A stretch of 64,000 nt of DNA from an uncultured Tateyamaria sp. GTDB lineage: Bacteria; Pseudomonadota; Alphaproteobacteria; Rhodobacterales; Rhodobacteraceae. The position numbers and the translations under genes are program-made. The notes under the pieces are model-generated. The model worked only from the letters and a program-made list of their open reading frames with translations, was not told where the DNA came from and did no database searches. Shown one piece after another: positions 57,617 through 64,000 of this stretch. Where the stretch lies: NCBI RefSeq assembly GCF_947494755.1, contig NZ_CANLVZ010000004.1:186001-250000 (forward strand), in the 5' to 3' direction. The number at the start of each line of letters is the position of its first letter. Position 1 is the stretch's first letter.

Positions 57617-58206
57617 CGCGCACCGCCCAGGCGAAACACCTTGTAGCGCTCAATCAGGCTGGTCACGCCAAAGGGCATGCAGCCCTCGCTCAGCGTGGTC
57701 TCGTGGCGGAATTCGTAATAGTGGGCGGCCAGCAACATGACAGCCTGCACCAGATCAACGGGCGCGCCGCTTAATGCAGGGGCAAACCCCGCGCGAAAAG
57801 TGACATCCACATGACCCGCGGCGGGGATACCGGGCAAGGCCGCACCAACAGCGCGCACACGCGGGCGATGGGCGTCGCGTTCAAGCCAGTACACCGCACC
57901 ATCGACGGGCGTCTCAACACCGGCACGATCCACAAGGCTCAACCCCGTCAGGGCCTGCACCGGAGCCACCGGCAAAGGTTGCGCGTCGCCCGACTGCCAG
58001 TCATTCACCGACAGCTTGAAATCACGCTCGATCAGCACCTTGTTCGTGCGCGCCTCAATAGCGGCCACAGCCGCCCGCAGAAAGCCCGTCAAAACAGCGT
58101 CTTGCACGCTGTCATTGCCGAACCCGCTGCCCAGACGCAGATGCGCCTTGAATTCCTCAACCGGCAGCGCCGCATCGGGCACCGTGGTTTCTTCGATCAA
58201 CATCAT
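57613..58206 (-). CDS. GTA head-tail adaptor (g6)
   Basis: About 197-residue head-tail connector (DUF/phage gp6-like): EEFKAHLRLGSGFGNDSVQDAVL and a C-terminal VMLLAAHYYEFRHET. It docks on the portal. GGAG lies eight bases before ATGATG at 58206. It is the first gene after the 165-bp structured spacer. Confidence 0.92.
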   Translation of the reverse strand: MMLIEETTVPDAALPVEEFKAHLRLGSGFGNDSVQDAVLTGFLRAAVAAIEARTNKVLIERDFKLSVNDWQSGDAQPLPVAPVQALTGLSLVDRAGVETPVDGAVYWLERDAHRPRVRAVGAALPGIPAAGHVDVTFRAGFAPALSGAPVDLVQAVMLLAAHYYEFRHETTLSEGCMPFGVTSLIERYKVFRLGGAR

Positions 58207-58371
58207 GGAACATCTCCACACGACTTATGGCCCCTCTTCCCGTTGGTCCGGGCGCGCGCCAGTCCGCATTGCTCGGACGGAGGGGAGCAGCTAGACAACA
58301 CGGCGCACTTCCAGCGCGCACCCGGCACCGGGGAAAGGCGCTCGCCCCTCCCCGATGATCCGCTCTTGCCC
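58207..58371 (-). other. Structured spacer between GTA capsid (g5) and adaptor (g6) genes
   Basis: 165-bp gap, the longest in the GTA cluster. Minus-strand RNA can fold CGGGGA/TCCCCG around GGCGAGCGCC just after the capsid stop, and a second hairpin GTCCG/CGGAC (58262-58278) inside outer arms CCCCTC/GAGGGG. No T run follows either, so they look like mRNA-stability or processing elements rather than terminators. Confidence 0.55.
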
Positions 58372-59550
58372 TTAGGCAGTCGCGAATTTCAGCAGCTTGA
58401 TGGCCGCAAAGTCGCTCACGTCACCGCCCACGCGCTTGGTGGCATAGAACAGCACGTGAGGCTTGGCGCTGAAGGGATCACGCAGCACGCGCAGATCAGG
58501 GCGCTCGGCCACGGTATAACCGGCGGCGAAATCACCAAAGGCGATGGCATCAGCGCCGGTCGTGGCATCAGGCATGTCCTCGGCGATCAGAACGGGATAG
58601 CCCATCAGAACCGCAGGCTGACCCGCCGCCAGACCGTCCGTCCACAAGAAGCGACCGTCATTGTCCTTGAGCTTGCGCACCAGACCGGCCGTCTTTGAGT
58701 TCATCACGAACGTCGCATTTGCGCGGTACTCGGCACCAAGCGCATAGACCACGTCGATGATCGCTTCGGCCGTCACATCGCCATCCGCACCCGTGGGCAC
58801 ATAGCCAAGGTTGCCCCAGGTCCAGACGTCATTGTCGACGGATGTGTGGGCCAAAAAGCCCTTGGGCTTGTCGATACCGTCACCCGTCACAAAGGACGCA
58901 GCCTCGGCACGCGAGAACTTGTCGGCAATGCGACCCGCAAGCCAGCCTTCGATATCGAATGCGGCATCATCCAGCAGACGCTGCGACGCCTTGGGCAAGG
59001 CCGACAGCTCGTGCAGCGGGATGGTGATGCGGTCGATCTGCGGGGTGTCGGTCTCGGTCAGGTTGGCCGTTTCCGTGGCCCAGCCCGTGCCGATGTCACC
59101 GTGATCGACCAGCACATCGTAGGATGTCGCCTCGACATTCACCACAGAGGCGATCGAGCGGATGGAGGCGGTCGCATTCAGCGCCGACTTCACCGTGTCC
59201 GAGGTCTGCGGATCGACAAGATAGCCACCATCGGAATTCACAGCCGTGGACAGGGATTTGCCATCCAGCTCAAGGCCACGCAGGCCATCATCATCACCCG
59301 CACGCAGATAGGCATTGAACGCCTTCTGATGAGGCGCGCCAAGATCGACGGCACCAGCCAAAGGGGTGCGCGCCGCAGTCATATTTTTCCGATCCAGCAT
59401 GGTCAGTCGCTCTTCCGTTTGTTGAAGTTTGGTTTGAATGTCGGCCTTGAAGCCTTTGATTTCCATCACGAAACCCATCATGGCCTCCGCAACATCCTGG
59501 ACGGGGGACAAACCTTCCCCGGCCCGAGCCTTGATCTCGGTCTTGCTCAT
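58372..59550 (-). CDS. GTA major capsid protein (g5, HK97 fold)
   Basis: 392-residue HK97-family capsid protein. Residues about 1-60 are a helical delta/scaffold segment (VMEIKGFKADIQTKLQQTEERL), removed by the protease in related particles; the mature part includes AVNSDGGYLVDPQTSD and YGPVL-type shell strands. ATG at 59550 has AAGGA at seven bases; another ATG lies two codons earlier. 40 bp after the protease gene. Confidence 0.95.
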   Translation of the reverse strand: MSKTEIKARAGEGLSPVQDVAEAMMGFVMEIKGFKADIQTKLQQTEERLTMLDRKNMTAARTPLAGAVDLGAPHQKAFNAYLRAGDDDGLRGLELDGKSLSTAVNSDGGYLVDPQTSDTVKSALNATASIRSIASVVNVEATSYDVLVDHGDIGTGWATETANLTETDTPQIDRITIPLHELSALPKASQRLLDDAAFDIEGWLAGRIADKFSRAEAASFVTGDGIDKPKGFLAHTSVDNDVWTWGNLGYVPTGADGDVTAEAIIDVVYALGAEYRANATFVMNSKTAGLVRKLKDNDGRFLWTDGLAAGQPAVLMGYPVLIAEDMPDATTGADAIAFGDFAAGYTVAERPDLRVLRDPFSAKPHVLFYATKRVGGDVSDFAAIKLLKFATA

Positions 59551-59590
59551 CAGCATGTCCTTGATTTGTGGTCGTTAACGGCCCCGCGCC

Positions 59591-60154
59591 TCAGCGCTGT
59601 GCCAAGCTTTCGCGGGCAAGCCAAAGGGCCTCCGCCATGTCGCGCAGCATGGCATCGTGATCCAGGACCACCTCGTCGGCCTTGGCCGCCACGCGCGCAC
59701 TGGGCAGCATCGGGAAAGTGACAAGCGACACCTCCCAAAGCTCCAGTTCGGTCAAGAGCCGCTGGCCCTTGGTGTTCTTTGTCGATTTGACGGTACGATA
59801 GCCGATAGACAGCCCGTCAATGGCGCCCGCCGCAATCAGTTCCAGCGCCTCCCGGCCCTTGGCCACCTCGGGCAGCAACCGGCCCTTGACCCACAGACCC
59901 TTGGCATCCTCACGCACCTCGTCCCACACGCCAATGGGACAGGCAGGATCATGCTGCCACAGCATCTTGACGCGCCGCCCCTCTGCCTTGATCGCGCCAA
60001 GCGAAGCGGCATAGGCCCCCGCACTGACCACATCTCCGCCCTGATCGCAGGCACCAAACAGACTGGCATAGCCCTCAATCACATGATCGTCCTGCACTTT
60101 GATCCCTTCACCAAAGCGCGCGAATTTTGTCTCAAGACCGGTCTCCGCCTGCAT
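59591..60154 (-). CDS. GTA prohead protease (g4)
   Basis: 187-residue HK97 prohead protease (U35 family). The start MQAETGLETKFARF, VIEGYASLFG, LWQHDPACPIG (catalytic His) and GAIDGLSIGYRT (catalytic Ser) fit the family. GAGGAGAG lies before ATG at 60154; the frame is open to 60250. It matures the capsid of the next gene. Confidence 0.94.
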   Translation of the reverse strand: MQAETGLETKFARFGEGIKVQDDHVIEGYASLFGACDQGGDVVSAGAYAASLGAIKAEGRRVKMLWQHDPACPIGVWDEVREDAKGLWVKGRLLPEVAKGREALELIAAGAIDGLSIGYRTVKSTKNTKGQRLLTELELWEVSLVTFPMLPSARVAAKADEVVLDHDAMLRDMAEALWLARESLAQR

Positions 60155-60171
60155 CTCTACTCTCCTCAGAT

Positions 60172-60396
60172 TTAGTGTGGGATGGCCGCCATGATGGATT
60201 GGAACCCGGTGGCCAGCACCGCTGCGACCACCCCGTAAACGGTGAGCCACAGCCGCTTTTCCAGCCGCTCCATCAGCTCCTCAAGACGATCCAGACGCTT
60301 GCATAGGTTGTCGAAATGCACCGCCGTCAGCCGCTCATGGGCCTCAAGGCGCAAACCTGGCGCACAGGCAAATCGCTCAAATGTTGTGTCATCCAT
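60172..60396 (-). CDS. GTA g3.5 small membrane-like protein
   Basis: 74 residues; N-terminal helix with charged RLDRLEELMERLEKRLW coiled coil, then one hydrophobic segment (LTVYGVVAAVLATGFQSI). Conserved between portal and protease in GTA clusters; role unknown, possibly membrane-associated or involved in assembly. It overlaps the portal stop by eight bases. Confidence 0.88.
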   Translation of the reverse strand: MDDTTFERFACAPGLRLEAHERLTAVHFDNLCKRLDRLEELMERLEKRLWLTVYGVVAAVLATGFQSIMAAIPH

Positions 60397-61576
60397 CCGC
60401 GCCCTCCTCGGCCAGCGCGGGCAAGCCCAGCATCCGGCGCTTTTCAGCGGCACTCAGGAAATCGGCACCCGACACGCGGGCCCACTGGGCATCCCGCTCA
60501 GCGGACAAGGCCGACACCTGATCCAGATCCGGGGTCAGGATCAAATCCTCGCCCGTATGGGCCCCAAGCCAATCGGCAAGCCCCGCCGCCACTCGCGTCG
60601 CCAGCGGCAAAACCGTCAACCGATAAAACGCTCGGTTCGCCTCCTGATAGTTGGCATAGGTGGCGTCCCCTTGAATCCCCAGCAACATCGGGGGCACGCC
60701 AAAGGCCAGAGCAATCTCGCGCGCCGCCGCTTCCTTCGTCTTCTGAAATTCCATATCCGAGGGCGAAAAGCCCATCGGCTTCCAATCCAGACCACCCTCC
60801 AGCAACATCGGACGGCCCGCATTGCGCGCGCCCGAGTGATTGGTCTCGATCTCCGACACAAGGCGGTCGTATTGATCGTTGCTCAACTGCGACTGACCCT
60901 CTTGGCCCCGATACACAATGGCCCCCGATGGGCGCGCCGCATTATCCAGCAACGACTTCGACCAGCGCGACGCTGCGGTATGGACATCCAGCGCCATGGC
61001 CGCCGCCTGCATCGGCGAAAAGCCGTAATGATCGTCCTGCGGATGAAACGACTTGATATGACAAATCGGGCTGATCGGCCCTGACGCGTCAAACCGATGT
61101 GTCTTGCCGCCCACCGCGTAGTCATAGGCGACAGGCCAACCATCCGCCCCCGGAACCACCGACATCCGATCCGAGCGCAGCACATGTAATTCCAGCGGTG
61201 GACCACTCTCGCCCGCGACGGCCTCGACATAGGCGTTGCCCGACAACAAAAGCTGCGCAAACAGCGCCTCCAGCAACTCCGCCCGGCCCTGTCCCGGATT
61301 GGGGCGCTTGATCAGGGCGAGCAAAGGATGCGCCTCAAACCGCCGCTCGGCATCCTGCAACACCAAGGGCAATGCGGCAGCGGCTTCCGCGATCAGCTTG
61401 ACCGACCGAAACCCCACCGGATTGCCCGAAAACCCCGACCGGGTCAGCGACACCGCATCGCGCGGGCTCCAGGCCACCCGGCCGCCCGTTTGCCAGGCCA
61501 CAACCTTGCCCGTGGCACTTGCCTTCTGCTCTGGTACATCCGCCACAGCGCGGCTCCGAAAGAAATCAAACACCAT
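60389..61576 (-). CDS. GTA portal protein (g3)
   Basis: 395-residue HK97-type portal: FDFFRSRAVADV start, LLEALFAQLLLSGNAYVEAV and EKRRMLGLPAL at the C terminus. Forms the ring through which DNA enters the head. The ribosome-binding site is AAGGAG, ten bases upstream of ATG at 61576 with a second, out-of-frame ATG in between. It follows the terminator at 61628-61664. Confidence 0.95.
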   Translation of the reverse strand: MVFDFFRSRAVADVPEQKASATGKVVAWQTGGRVAWSPRDAVSLTRSGFSGNPVGFRSVKLIAEAAAALPLVLQDAERRFEAHPLLALIKRPNPGQGRAELLEALFAQLLLSGNAYVEAVAGESGPPLELHVLRSDRMSVVPGADGWPVAYDYAVGGKTHRFDASGPISPICHIKSFHPQDDHYGFSPMQAAAMALDVHTAASRWSKSLLDNAARPSGAIVYRGQEGQSQLSNDQYDRLVSEIETNHSGARNAGRPMLLEGGLDWKPMGFSPSDMEFQKTKEAAAREIALAFGVPPMLLGIQGDATYANYQEANRAFYRLTVLPLATRVAAGLADWLGAHTGEDLILTPDLDQVSALSAERDAQWARVSGADFLSAAEKRRMLGLPALAEEGADG

Positions 61577-61627
61577 GTTTCATGGTCTCCTTCACGTGTT
61601 CCCCACAAAGCCACCGCCTTGCGTCCA

Positions 61628-61664
61628 ACAAAAAAGGGCGTGCGCTGTTGCCAGCGCCGCCCTT
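61628..61664 (-). terminator. Intrinsic terminator between GTA g2 (terminase) and g3 (portal)
   Basis: On the minus strand the stem AAGGGCGGCGCTG pairs with CAGCGCACGCCCTT (one bulge), closed by a GCAA tetraloop and followed by a T6 run (TTTTTTGTTGG). All requirements for an intrinsic terminator are met, yet it lies inside the GTA transcription unit, 52 bp before the portal ATG. Confidence 0.85.
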
Positions 61665-61665
61665 G

Positions 61666-61684
61666 CTTCATTTCGCCAAATAAA
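61666..61684 (-). repeat. Second copy of the TTTATTTGGCGAAATGAAG repeat
   Basis: Exact 19-base copy of the tail of the repeat at 5853-5871, in the opposite orientation, lying between the terminase stop and the g2/g3 terminator. Confidence 0.8.
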
Positions 61685-61705
61685 TCGCGCGCCCCGGCGG
61701 GTCGC

Positions 61706-63076
61706 CTACAACCCGCGCACCCCTGGCCTGCGATATTCCCGCGCCGGGTCAATCATCAACTCATGGAACGCCCACACCAGCGCATCCACTCGGTCGGGCG
61801 AGCCAGAACCGACAAACCCACGCCGCGTCATCGCCACCATCTGATCCTCGAGCGCCCCCAGATCCGGCGCGTGGGTCACACGGCCCTGTTCGTACAACGC
61901 AGCCACGGGCTCCGCCCGCGCCACCTTGCCCCGCGTCGCATGGACCGCGCGGTAGGGCACCAGCGGATCAATCTGACGGACCACCTCGCCCACCATCTGA
62001 CCGCCCTGGTTGACCTCAGCGACCAGCCGATCCGCCTGAAACTGATCCACAGCCCCCACAGCAGCGCGCGCCCACTCCGAGGGGCGCGCGCCCTGCACGG
62101 ACACATCCGCAATCACGTGCGCGGTCCAATCCTGCGGCGAGCCCTGCATATGGGCTCCCACCACAACAATCCCGCATTCGTCCGCCGACGACCCGCTGGT
62201 CACCGCCGGGTCCAACCCGACAACAATGCGATCAAACCCGGCCACCTCCCTGCGATGACAAGCTTCCAGCATCTCGGTCGTCCAGAGCGCACCTTCCGCA
62301 TCGCTCAACAACACCCCGTCCAACTCCTGACGGCCCAGCCGGGTGCCATGATAGCGGGCCCGCACCTCCTCCAGAAACGAGGCCGCCAGGTTGGCCGCAT
62401 TGGCCTCCGTCGCTGCATGGGTCGTCACGGTCGAGGGCATCTGCAGCAGATCCTTCAAAACGCCGACATTGCGCGGCGTGGTCGTCACACACACCCGCGG
62501 ATCGTCGCCCAGCCGCAACGCGAACTGCAACATATCCCATGTCTCGCGACCCTTCTTCCACTTGGCCAACTCATCAACCCAAGCCGCATCGAATTGCGGG
62601 CCCCGCAAGCCTTCGGGGTCAAAGGCGGTATGGACAGTCGCCACGGCCCCGTTGGGCCACTCAAGACGCTTGCGCCCCGCAACCCAGGTCGGGCGACGGT
62701 CCGGGGGCGAGCAGGCGAGAATACCGCTCTCGCCAAAAATCATCACTTCGCGGACCTGCTCAATGGTCTCACCGACCAAAGCCACGCGACGGGCCGTGCC
62801 ATGATCAAACGGTGTCGGCCCCTCAACCTTCGAACGGACCCACTCGGCCCCGGCGCGGGTCTTGCCCGCACCACGCCCCCCCATAATGACCCATGTACGC
62901 CAGTCGCCCTCAGGTGGCAGCTGGTGATCCAGCGCCCAGAACTCGAACAGAAAAGGGAGGGCGCCCAGGGCGCCCTCGTCCAACTCATTCAGAAACTGCT
63001 CCTGCACCGCAACAGGGGCGGATGCGAGCAAGCGCGCACCGTATGTCAGCGCGGGCGCGGTCGAGGTCGATAGCAT
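61706..63076 (-). CDS. GTA large terminase subunit (g2)
   Basis: 456-residue packaging ATPase/nuclease. Walker A VIMGGRGAGKTRAGAEW (Lys72), Walker B VAAWVDE-like DAAWVDELAKW, and C-terminal RNase-H-like nuclease with VGLDPAVTSGSSADE. It would package host DNA without a specific start site. ATG at 63076 follows AAGGGGG; a TTG at 63121 is less likely. It overlaps the end of g1 by 92 bp in another frame. Confidence 0.95.
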   Translation of the reverse strand: MLSTSTAPALTYGARLLASAPVAVQEQFLNELDEGALGALPFLFEFWALDHQLPPEGDWRTWVIMGGRGAGKTRAGAEWVRSKVEGPTPFDHGTARRVALVGETIEQVREVMIFGESGILACSPPDRRPTWVAGRKRLEWPNGAVATVHTAFDPEGLRGPQFDAAWVDELAKWKKGRETWDMLQFALRLGDDPRVCVTTTPRNVGVLKDLLQMPSTVTTHAATEANAANLAASFLEEVRARYHGTRLGRQELDGVLLSDAEGALWTTEMLEACHRREVAGFDRIVVGLDPAVTSGSSADECGIVVVGAHMQGSPQDWTAHVIADVSVQGARPSEWARAAVGAVDQFQADRLVAEVNQGGQMVGEVVRQIDPLVPYRAVHATRGKVARAEPVAALYEQGRVTHAPDLGALEDQMVAMTRRGFVGSGSPDRVDALVWAFHELMIDPAREYRRPGVRGL

Positions 63077-63329
63077 AGCCCCCTTGCGCGATCCGGCTTT
63101 GCTTTTGTCGGATGTCAGCAAGCGATACCTCCAGCTTCTGGCAATTGATCATGACAGAATTCATCTCCGAGATCTTGGATTTGATTTCTGCGGCTTTGAC
63201 GTCCTCCCCCTGTGCGACCCTTTCTCTGAGGGCTTCGAATTCGTGACGCAAATGGCGCACCGAATCCTGCACCGAGGAAAACAGCTCCTCGACGCGAGCT
63301 TCTTCAAGCTCCGGGGTGATTAGTGTCAT
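62985..63329 (-). CDS. GTA g1 (small-terminase-like)
   Basis: 114 residues, helical and charged: MTLITPELEEARVEELFSS then a long helix with HEFEALRERVAQGEDVKAAEIKSKI. Corresponds to RcGTA orfg1, thought to be the small terminase. GAGAGG lies ten bases before ATG at 63329. The longer frame to 63467 starts in the -35 box and is not real. The last 92 bp overlap g2. Confidence 0.92.
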   Translation of the reverse strand: MTLITPELEEARVEELFSSVQDSVRHLRHEFEALRERVAQGEDVKAAEIKSKISEMNSVMINCQKLEVSLADIRQKQSRIAQGGYAIDLDRARADIRCALARIRPCCGAGAVSE

Positions 63330-63373
63330 ATGTGCATAACCTCTCATGCGTTGGGTTAAGTCCCCGCACGAGC

Positions 63374-63412
63374 AAAATGAAAAAGCGACCCCGGATTGCT
63401 CCGACGGTCGCT
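63374..63412 (-). terminator. Intrinsic terminator in the leader of GTA g1
   Basis: Minus-strand hairpin: outer stem AGCGACC/GGTCGCT, inner stem CGGA/TCCG, GCAA tetraloop, then TTTTTCATTTT. It starts about 20 bases after the predicted transcript start and lies 45 bp before the g1 ATG. Together with the promoter it would yield an RNA of roughly 50-60 nt. Confidence 0.85.
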
Positions 63413-63438
63413 GACCCACTTTTCCTAGCTTGTCACAA

Positions 63439-63467
63439 GTTATACGTGCAACCGTTCGCAGAGTCAA
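63439..63467 (-). promoter_or_regulatory. Sigma-70-type promoter upstream of GTA g1
   Basis: -35 TTGACT (63462-63467) and -10 TATAAC (63439-63444), spacer exactly 17. This is one of the best sigma-70 matches in the window. Predicted transcript start is near 63432. Confidence 0.7.
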
Positions 63468-63532
63468 GTGGTTTGATGGGGCGACGCGCCCGCTAAGCGT
63501 ACGGTATGATTAATAAATTCCTACATTCCGGG

Positions 63533-63548
63533 TTAATGTCGGGTTAAC
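63533..63548. promoter_or_regulatory. CtrA binding site upstream of GTA g1
   Basis: TTAATGTCGGGTTAAC fits the CtrA consensus TTAA-N7-TTAAC. On the minus strand it also reads TTAA-N7-TTAAC, so it is a two-sided full site. It lies about 66 bp upstream of the -35 and 100 bp upstream of the predicted transcript start. Confidence 0.75.
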
Positions 63549-63606
63549 CTGCGGGTAAGCCACTGATGTCACGAAACAACTCACGCGTGTCTTTCAGCGT
63601 CACGCG

Positions 63607-63671
63607 GGCGGAGGACACCTCCGCCTTACACCCACACCGTTTCGCTACGTAAGGCGCAGGTGTCCTGCGCC
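63607..63671. repeat. REP-like hairpin pair downstream of mltG
   Basis: Two perfect 8-bp hairpins, 63607-63625 (arms GGCGGAGG/CCTCCGCC) and 63653-63671 (arms GGCGCAGG/CCTGCGCC), in head-to-head arrangement with shared GTAAGGCG edges. The second abuts the mltG stop. The pattern matches REP/BIME elements of Rhodobacteraceae; it may stop mltG transcription from entering the GTA cluster. Confidence 0.75.
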
Positions 63672-64000
63672 CTACCCGCCATCCGTTTCATTGGCCCGCT
63701 CCGCCTCGATCTCACGCCAGCGCGCCACATTGCGGTTGTGCTCGTCCAGCGTCTCGGCAAACGCGTGGCCGCCCGTGCCATCGGCAACAAAGAACACATA
63801 GTTCGTGTCCTCCGGCTGCCCCGCCGCCATCAGGCTCGCGCGCCCGGGGTTCGCAATCGGGGTCGGCGGCAGCCCTTCGATCACATAGGTGTTCCACGGC
63901 GTCGCCTCACGCAGCTCGGACCGACGCAGGCCACGACCCAAGACACCCTGCCCCTTGGTCACACCATAAATGACGGTCGGGTCCGTCTGCAGGCGCATCC
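63672..64000 (-). CDS. mltG: Endolytic murein transglycosylase MltG, C-terminal part (cut by window edge)
   Basis: About 109 C-terminal residues of the YceG/MltG family: MRLQTDPTVIYGVTKGQG, NTYVIEGLPPTPIANPGRASL and the terminal YVFFVADGTGGHAFAETLDEHNRNVARW. MltG cuts nascent glycan strands at the inner membrane. The catalytic Glu region lies outside the window. The frame remains open to the right edge. It lies upstream of the GTA cluster on the same strand. Confidence 0.95.
   Translation of the reverse strand, partial: MRLQTDPTVIYGVTKGQGVLGRGLRRSELREATPWNTYVIEGLPPTPIANPGRASLMAAGQPEDTNYVFFVADGTGGHAFAETLDEHNRNVARWREIEAERANETDGG

Follow-up and report, generated by a model that had tools for sequence, protein, structure and literature searches.

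A Conserved Promoter and Early Terminator Ahead of the GTA Genes of Tateyamaria and Related Rhodobacteraceae, with a Possible Role for GafA in Antitermination

Gene order and leader elements at the locus

The DNA analysed (the window) is a 64,000-nucleotide stretch from an uncultured Tateyamaria sp. All positions given below refer to it, and the features described are on its minus strand. The window carries the beginning of a gene transfer agent (GTA) cluster. The first gene, g1 (positions 62985–63329, 114 aa, with its ATG at 63329), matches no Pfam family above cut-off; its name comes from its place ahead of g2 (positions 61706–63076), the terminase large subunit (PF03237, PF17289), which serves as the anchor of the comparison. 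The g1 reading frame is open upstream as far as a TTG that is part of the −35 element itself (62985–63467), thus automatic annotation may place the g1 start too early. A start annotated too early has been reported for gtaT of Caulobacter (PMC11150451), and the same may apply to g1.

The promoter consists of a −35 hexamer TTGACT (63462–63467) and a −10 hexamer TATAAC (63439–63444) separated by a 17-nt spacer. The spacer reads CTGCGAACGGTTGCACG and contains the sequence GCGAACGGT (63451–63459), with the core CGNNCG; its conservation, together with binding data in published work on other species, makes it a candidate site for the C-terminal domain of GafA. Transcription is predicted to start near 63432, which is 103 bp upstream of the g1 start. 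A second −10-like sequence, CAAGCT (63427–63432; CAWGCT in the family), lies at about +1 to +6 and, from its conservation, is a candidate sigma-dependent pause element.

A 29-nt hairpin with a GCAA loop (termed H1, 63384–63412) begins 20 nt past the predicted start and ends 55 nt before the g1 start codon. It is followed by the U-rich tail TTTTTCATTTT (63374–63384). The 37-nt hairpin region has a predicted folding energy of −19.4 kcal/mol (z = −4.3), and none of 200 shuffled sequences folds as well. The locus thus displays a stable, G+C-rich hairpin with a T-tract directly after it, the arrangement of an intrinsic terminator. If transcription stopped near 63378, the RNA would have a length of about 55 nt; its predicted folding energy is −20.2 kcal/mol (z = −2.4), and 5 of 200 shuffles fold equally well. 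Folding of the plus strand is uninformative. These positions agree with a preliminary description of this DNA, which had pointed out the TTGACT-17-TATAAC promoter, the hairpin about 20 nt past the start and its U-rich tail ahead of g1, and had predicted a short RNA of about 50–60 nt. A simple scanner applied to positions 58000–64000 reported only the upper part of the hairpin and missed the promoter, because its −10 rule requires T as the last base and the base here is C.

Two further helices are predicted in the leader. An outer helix around H1 (63374–63422, with arms at 63422–63415 and 63381–63374) can form only once the first part of the U-tract has been transcribed. A second hairpin, H2 (63343–63372, CTCGTGCG ... 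CGCATGAG; −16.0 kcal/mol, z = −2.9, 3 of 200 shuffles equally good), overlaps with its 3′ arm the purine run GAGAGG (63345–63340) ahead of the g1 start.

Upstream of the promoter, between it and a gene of the YceG family, there is also an imperfect inverted repeat (63607–63671). An Rfam search with this repeat gave only sub-threshold matches to microRNA models, which are taken as chance.

Conservation in the genus and the family

Upstream regions of 148 GTA loci were compared, with g2 as the anchor: 19 from Tateyamaria, where g2 is present in 19 of 20 genomes, and 129 from other genera. A g2 match is found in 218 of 248 family genomes; the 129 loci are a manual selection from the 216 in other genera, in which the better matches predominate. 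L021, a second hit in the genome of L018, was removed, and genome G060 was excluded because its match begins at a contig end. In the genome that carries L018 and L021 (G018), the match to g2 is broken, near residues 65–70, into two parts that lie in different frames; the promoter and hairpin there are intact.

In Tateyamaria the promoter and the hairpin are present in register in all 19 GTA loci. A strict rule that uses the promoter and terminator alone finds the pair in 87 of the 148 loci, including the 19 of the genus. A profile of the promoter block matches 121 of the 148 loci, 117 of them with E < 1e-3, and all matches are on the coding strand; this profile was seeded with 98 loci that had been selected by a motif containing CAWGCT, and it is not independent of that motif. 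Among the 117 loci bearing the block, −35 hexamer included, the hairpin and T-tract are kept in 114 (hairpin of −12 kcal/mol or better, in a region that starts at about +1), with the T-tract starting 43–59 nt into the tested region. The same criterion is satisfied by 58 of 351 dinucleotide shuffles and by 17 of 117 regions of equal size taken upstream of the −35 element. The three block-bearing loci without it are L114, L122 and L147. The block is absent at the chosen cut-off in 31 of the 148 loci, of which 16 still have a strong hairpin and T-tract nearby.

A set of 80 loci from genome contigs of named organisms gives a comparable result. The block is found in 62 of them, among these loci of Ruegeria, Sulfitobacter, Rhodovulum, Paracoccus and Thioclava; of these 62, all but L222 (61 loci) also have the terminator. 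It should be noted that 14 of the 62 distinct sequences are already present in the family set, therefore this sample is not wholly independent. A strong hairpin with a T-tract is present in 11 of the 18 named-organism loci without the block; two Leisingera loci among the 18 show, by eye, a diverged form of the block.

Covariation in the leader

The preliminary description had named lack of conservation of the hairpin in relatives as evidence against its proposal, and had looked to compensatory changes in the stem for support. The hairpin is conserved, as given above, and compensatory changes are present. Among 117 aligned leaders, 116 of them distinct, the eight lower pairs of the H1 stem are paired in 87.3% of cells, and two-sided changes occur at all eight. 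The number of cells with two-sided changes is 55, compared with 18.1 in shuffles (0 of 500 shuffles reach this value). Related sequences can exceed shuffles without any structure, therefore the covariation of H1 is support rather than proof.

For the outer helix, the same 117 leaders show pairing in 86.3% of cells and two-sided changes in 21 cells, versus 8.8 in shuffles; its number of two-sided pairs and of pair types is no higher than in shuffles. The covariation of this helix is thus partial. At the site of H2 an inverted repeat is found in 83 of 117 loci (shuffle mean 23.9), and a looser test gives 87 of 117 as against 36 in one shuffle each. H2 overlaps or abuts a purine run resembling a ribosome-binding site in 71 loci. 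With the arms of H2 anchored without demanding pairing, 61 of 64 cases show a match at the two inner bases, but 58 of these are GC/GC and 3 are AC/GT, so that the covariation evidence for H2 is thin.

Elements within and around the promoter

Since the seeds of the profile were picked with CAWGCT, the frequency of this motif was taken from 83 loci selected by promoter and terminator only, where neither the −10-like element nor the spacer element had been used. CANGCT follows the −10 hexamer in 76 of the 83 loci (335 of 29600 random 12-mers), and CGNNCG is present in the spacer in 72 of the 83 (3652 of 29600 random 17-mers). CAWGCT has A as its second and T as its sixth base. A −10-like element is thus found in the first transcribed bases, and a role in pausing is a candidate function for it. 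The CGNNCG element is a candidate GafA site by analogy, from the region bound in R. capsulatus EMSA experiments and from the spacer element of Caulobacter.

Two other sequences lie further upstream. A TTAAT-N-ACCGTACGSTTAGC-like stretch at about 63490–63515 (minus strand) appears by eye to be conserved in relatives of the genus, and is possibly the site of the N-terminal part of GafA. A CtrA-like sequence, TTAA-N7-TTAA, is present upstream of the −35 element at 63533–63547 (minus strand). Of 117 loci, 27 have TTAA-N6/7-TTAA no more than 160 nt upstream (shuffle mean 0.65); in 11 of 19 Tateyamaria loci it is at −80. The CtrA protein of R. capsulatus is reported not to bind the RcGTA promoter (PMC6363796, PMC9638019).

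Association with GTA clusters and occurrence outside the family

A search with the motif CAWGCTRGAAGAARTGGGCAA as the sole query, no gene being included, yielded 38 matches among viral contigs. In 36 of the 38, g2 is located 336–437 nt downstream; a terminator is present in 37, with the T-tract at 46–57 nt, and the promoter matches at 8 or more of 12 positions in 34. L284 looks like a chance match to the motif. L281 is below the cut-off for g2 and retains about 40 residues from the start of g2, located where they would be expected, together with part of g5; from its sequence it looks like a decayed GTA cluster. A second pattern yielded 8 loci, each of which has both g2 and the terminator; three are repeats. 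In the genome from which the window comes, the promoter pattern is found once with up to three mismatches allowed.

The hairpin after the GTA promoter is not a product of chance: the folding energy relative to shuffles, the conservation in the family and the motif-only search together rule this out.

A comparison of g2 with a phage collection gave 325 records, all with less than 60% identity. In a sample of the class, g2 is present in 110 of 385 genomes. None of 40 upstream regions from outside the family passed with the block profile (best E = 0.025). Looser patterns show, in three of these (L162, L165 and L169), a TTGAC followed after 17–18 nt by TA and then by CAYGCT and GAATTG, and AACGGT is present in the spacer of L165 and L169. 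No terminator is found in the three at the distance seen in the family; L169 has one about 70 nt further on. From these sequences the early terminator seems to be characteristic of this family, and there are weak hints that the promoter elements are older than the family. The R. capsulatus leader, sought by a published primer sequence, was found in none of 394 family genomes and in no viral contig.

The candidate factor GafA

Family PF20057 (DUF6456) has one match in the genome of the window (G000:C1:288487-288897, E = 1.8e-62); among 14 control genomes, only Caulobacter was matched. The domain occupies residues 231–367 of a 378-aa open reading frame that has a helix-turn-helix near its N-terminus. 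Fragments of R. capsulatus GafA are numbered to 382 (PMC6363796, PMC9638019). Upstream of the candidate gafA gene is the CtrA-type site TTAAC-N6-GTAAC, the site described for gafA in the same papers.

DUF6456 is found in 224 of 248 family genomes. In 20 of the 30 genomes without g2 the domain was compared: 7 have DUF6456 and 13 have neither. Likewise, among 20 of the 24 genomes without DUF6456, 7 carry g2, some of them being incomplete assemblies. Two genomes, G133 (L097) and G215 (L095), have no DUF6456 match, with g2 present and the block kept. Judged from sequence matches, the tie between GafA and the GTA across family genomes is strong, though not strict.

Comparison with known antitermination systems

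As read from the sequence, the promoter block together with the early terminator matches the set of cis elements of Q- and AlpA-type antitermination, the spacer site being a candidate. Q proteins require two features of the promoter, a site located between its −35 and −10 elements and, where transcription has just begun, a −10-like sequence (PMC6606751). The phage Q system (PR′/tR′) resembles the locus described here in its late promoter with a spacer site (a candidate one in the GTA leader), its −10-like sequence, its downstream terminator and the phage-type structural genes beyond. It differs in the factor, GafA having DUF6456 and a helix-turn-helix.

The alpBCDE operon of Pseudomonas aeruginosa, controlled by AlpA, has a binding element between −35 and −10, where the present locus has its candidate site, and likewise an intrinsic terminator located after the promoter and ahead of the first gene, and its product appears in a subset of cells (PMC7969949, PMC9371919). 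The alpB promoter displays CACGAT at −1 to +5, placed like CAWGCT here, and altering its A or T impaired antitermination by AlpA. The AlpA system differs in that it has another factor, with the binding sequence GGGACG-N5-GGTA, and in that alpBCDE is a host lysis operon and not a GTA; read-through was shown for AlpA, whereas for the GTA leader it is proposed (PMC7969949, PMC9371919).

The closest comparison in gene content is the GTA of Caulobacter crescentus, where GafZ is an antiterminator loaded at the promoter (Tran and Le 2024, PMC11150451). The GafY/GafZ system shares with the present locus a GTA cluster, a DUF6456 regulator and an element between −35 and −10, which is essential in Caulobacter. 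Antitermination is known there and would be the corresponding function here. It differs in its weak −35 element (AATCAT), in its described terminator, which consists of three GC-rich repeats after the first gene, and in its spacer palindrome GCGCCCG-CTGGCGC (PMC11150451). A loose pattern of this palindrome is absent from the 40 loci of the class, and the palindrome is absent from the spacer of the window; therefore membership in the Caulobacter variant is not claimed. The Caulobacter paper has no wording on pauses or attenuators, and it reports no structural similarity of GafZ to Q or AlpA. The same authors suggest that R. capsulatus GafA might have unrecognised antitermination activity (PMC11150451).

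In R. capsulatus the cluster and the type of regulator are the same as here, and GafA as well as its C-terminal domain bind a region 76–125 bp upstream of g1 that includes the −35 and −10 elements and the start site (PMC6363796, PMC9638019); the predicted start in the window, 103 bp upstream of g1, falls at a corresponding distance. It differs in that GafA is described there as activating via the omega subunit. The main texts of these two papers contain neither “terminat-” nor “hairpin”.

The preliminary description had stated that no such leader was known in GTA clusters. This still holds for the leader itself: a non-exhaustive search, mostly of non-subscription literature, found no description of a terminator placed after a GTA promoter and ahead of the first gene. 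It does not hold for the principle, as antitermination is already in print for the Caulobacter GTA and, by its title, for the Bartonella BaGTA (eLife 2025).

Proposed mechanism and alternative explanations

The analysis shows the promoter and leader elements with their conserved spacing, a stem that covaries, a link to GTA clusters and a gafA gene in the genome. From these we infer a series of events in the cell: termination, pausing, loading of GafA and read-through. We consider it probable that the promoter and the early intrinsic terminator act as a gate on the GTA cluster, one that is passed by a polymerase loaded with GafA. Unaided RNA polymerase would initiate at the near-consensus promoter and stop at H1, leaving the leader RNA of about 55 nt. 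The C-terminal DUF6456 domain of GafA would bind the conserved element between −35 and −10, meet there a polymerase that sigma holds at the −10-like CAWGCT, and load onto it. The modified polymerase would then pass H1 into g1 and the remaining cluster. GafA may additionally activate initiation, as reported for R. capsulatus. The sequence evidence suggests that the GTA genes are transcribed only when a dedicated regulator carries RNA polymerase past a stop signal.

The strength of the core promoter fits this arrangement. A near-consensus −35 element makes the Caulobacter promoter independent of GafYZ, though about sixfold weaker (PMC11150451), thus a strong core promoter such as that in the window would need another gate, and the early terminator would explain how a near-consensus promoter is silent in most cells. 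Several observations are counted against a gate operated by GafA: the block is absent in 31 of 148 loci and was not found in the 40 regions outside the family, the 7 genomes mentioned above carry g2 with no DUF6456 match, 7 others have DUF6456 with no g2, and no structural similarity of GafZ to Q or AlpA is reported. The reported action of R. capsulatus GafA as an activator that contacts omega, which needs no terminator, is counted against it also.

This last observation leads to the alternative that survives best, in which GafA activates initiation only and the hairpin is a structured 5′ untranslated region that serves the stability or translation of g1, being a weak terminator and no gate. 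The further conserved leader helices, one of them over the purine run ahead of g1, are in keeping with such a function. However, a stabilising hairpin needs no T-tract straight after its stem, and 114 of 117 loci keep one; the −10-like element is also left without an explanation. Activation alone is judged unlikely.

The hairpin might instead insulate the cluster from read-through out of the upstream gene, or terminate the transcript of that gene. A YceG-family gene is located upstream on the same strand in the window and in 85 of 117 block loci, and is never in the opposite orientation (in the other 32 loci it was not seen, partly owing to short upstream sequence). A pure insulator would be expected ahead of the promoter and not 20 nt past the start of transcription. 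Moreover, when 48 loci were searched over about 1.5 kb, nine gave no match to YceG, yet keep the block and terminator. These nine loci lead us to reject termination of the YceG transcript as the sole role, and insulation as such is improbable.

A third explanation, one branch of the preliminary description, is that promoter and terminator constitute an independent gene, the product of which is a small regulatory RNA of about 55 nt. The size and shape fit, and the first 20 transcribed nt are well conserved, but a conserved 5′ part is equally compatible with a pause element. The motif is nearly always directly before g1–g2 (36/38 and 8/8 in the two motif searches) and occurs once in its own genome. 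A known Rfam RNA is rejected, as no family matched in the leader up to E = 10. Nothing specific was found for the small RNA branch, which we regard as very improbable; the other branch, attenuation or antitermination, gains from the hairpin and T-tract being kept in place, the covariation, the Q/AlpA-like elements and a conserved candidate factor.

An attenuator in which translation of a leader peptide or a small molecule decides whether H1 forms, to which the position of the terminator and the conserved helices beyond H1 might point, is barely credible, because the outer helix surrounds H1 rather than competing with it, and because a leader peptide is rejected by the lack of a constant open reading frame (4 to 130 codons in 48 CATGCT loci, open to the end of the stretch in 5) and of a constant frame to the next conserved block (29/21/19 over 69 loci).

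The gate passed by GafA-loaded polymerase may be part of a wider scheme, to which we give about even chances. The GTA cluster would keep a complete phage-style late promoter, with a factor site in the spacer, a −10-like pause and an early terminator, and whether particles are made would be decided after initiation, by the loading of GafA: the short leader would be made, and only loaded polymerases would pass. The read-through RNA would then fold the outer helix, and H2 over the purine run, as a further layer of control.

The leader bears on how GafA turns on RcGTA-type clusters, and on why this occurs in few cells only. It offers a concrete conserved site, with named bases, for testing the idea of antitermination by GafA, in a family that includes laboratory GTA producers. 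If the proposal is true, domesticated GTAs have retained a phage-type control of late genes, in which the factor has no known resemblance to Q or AlpA.
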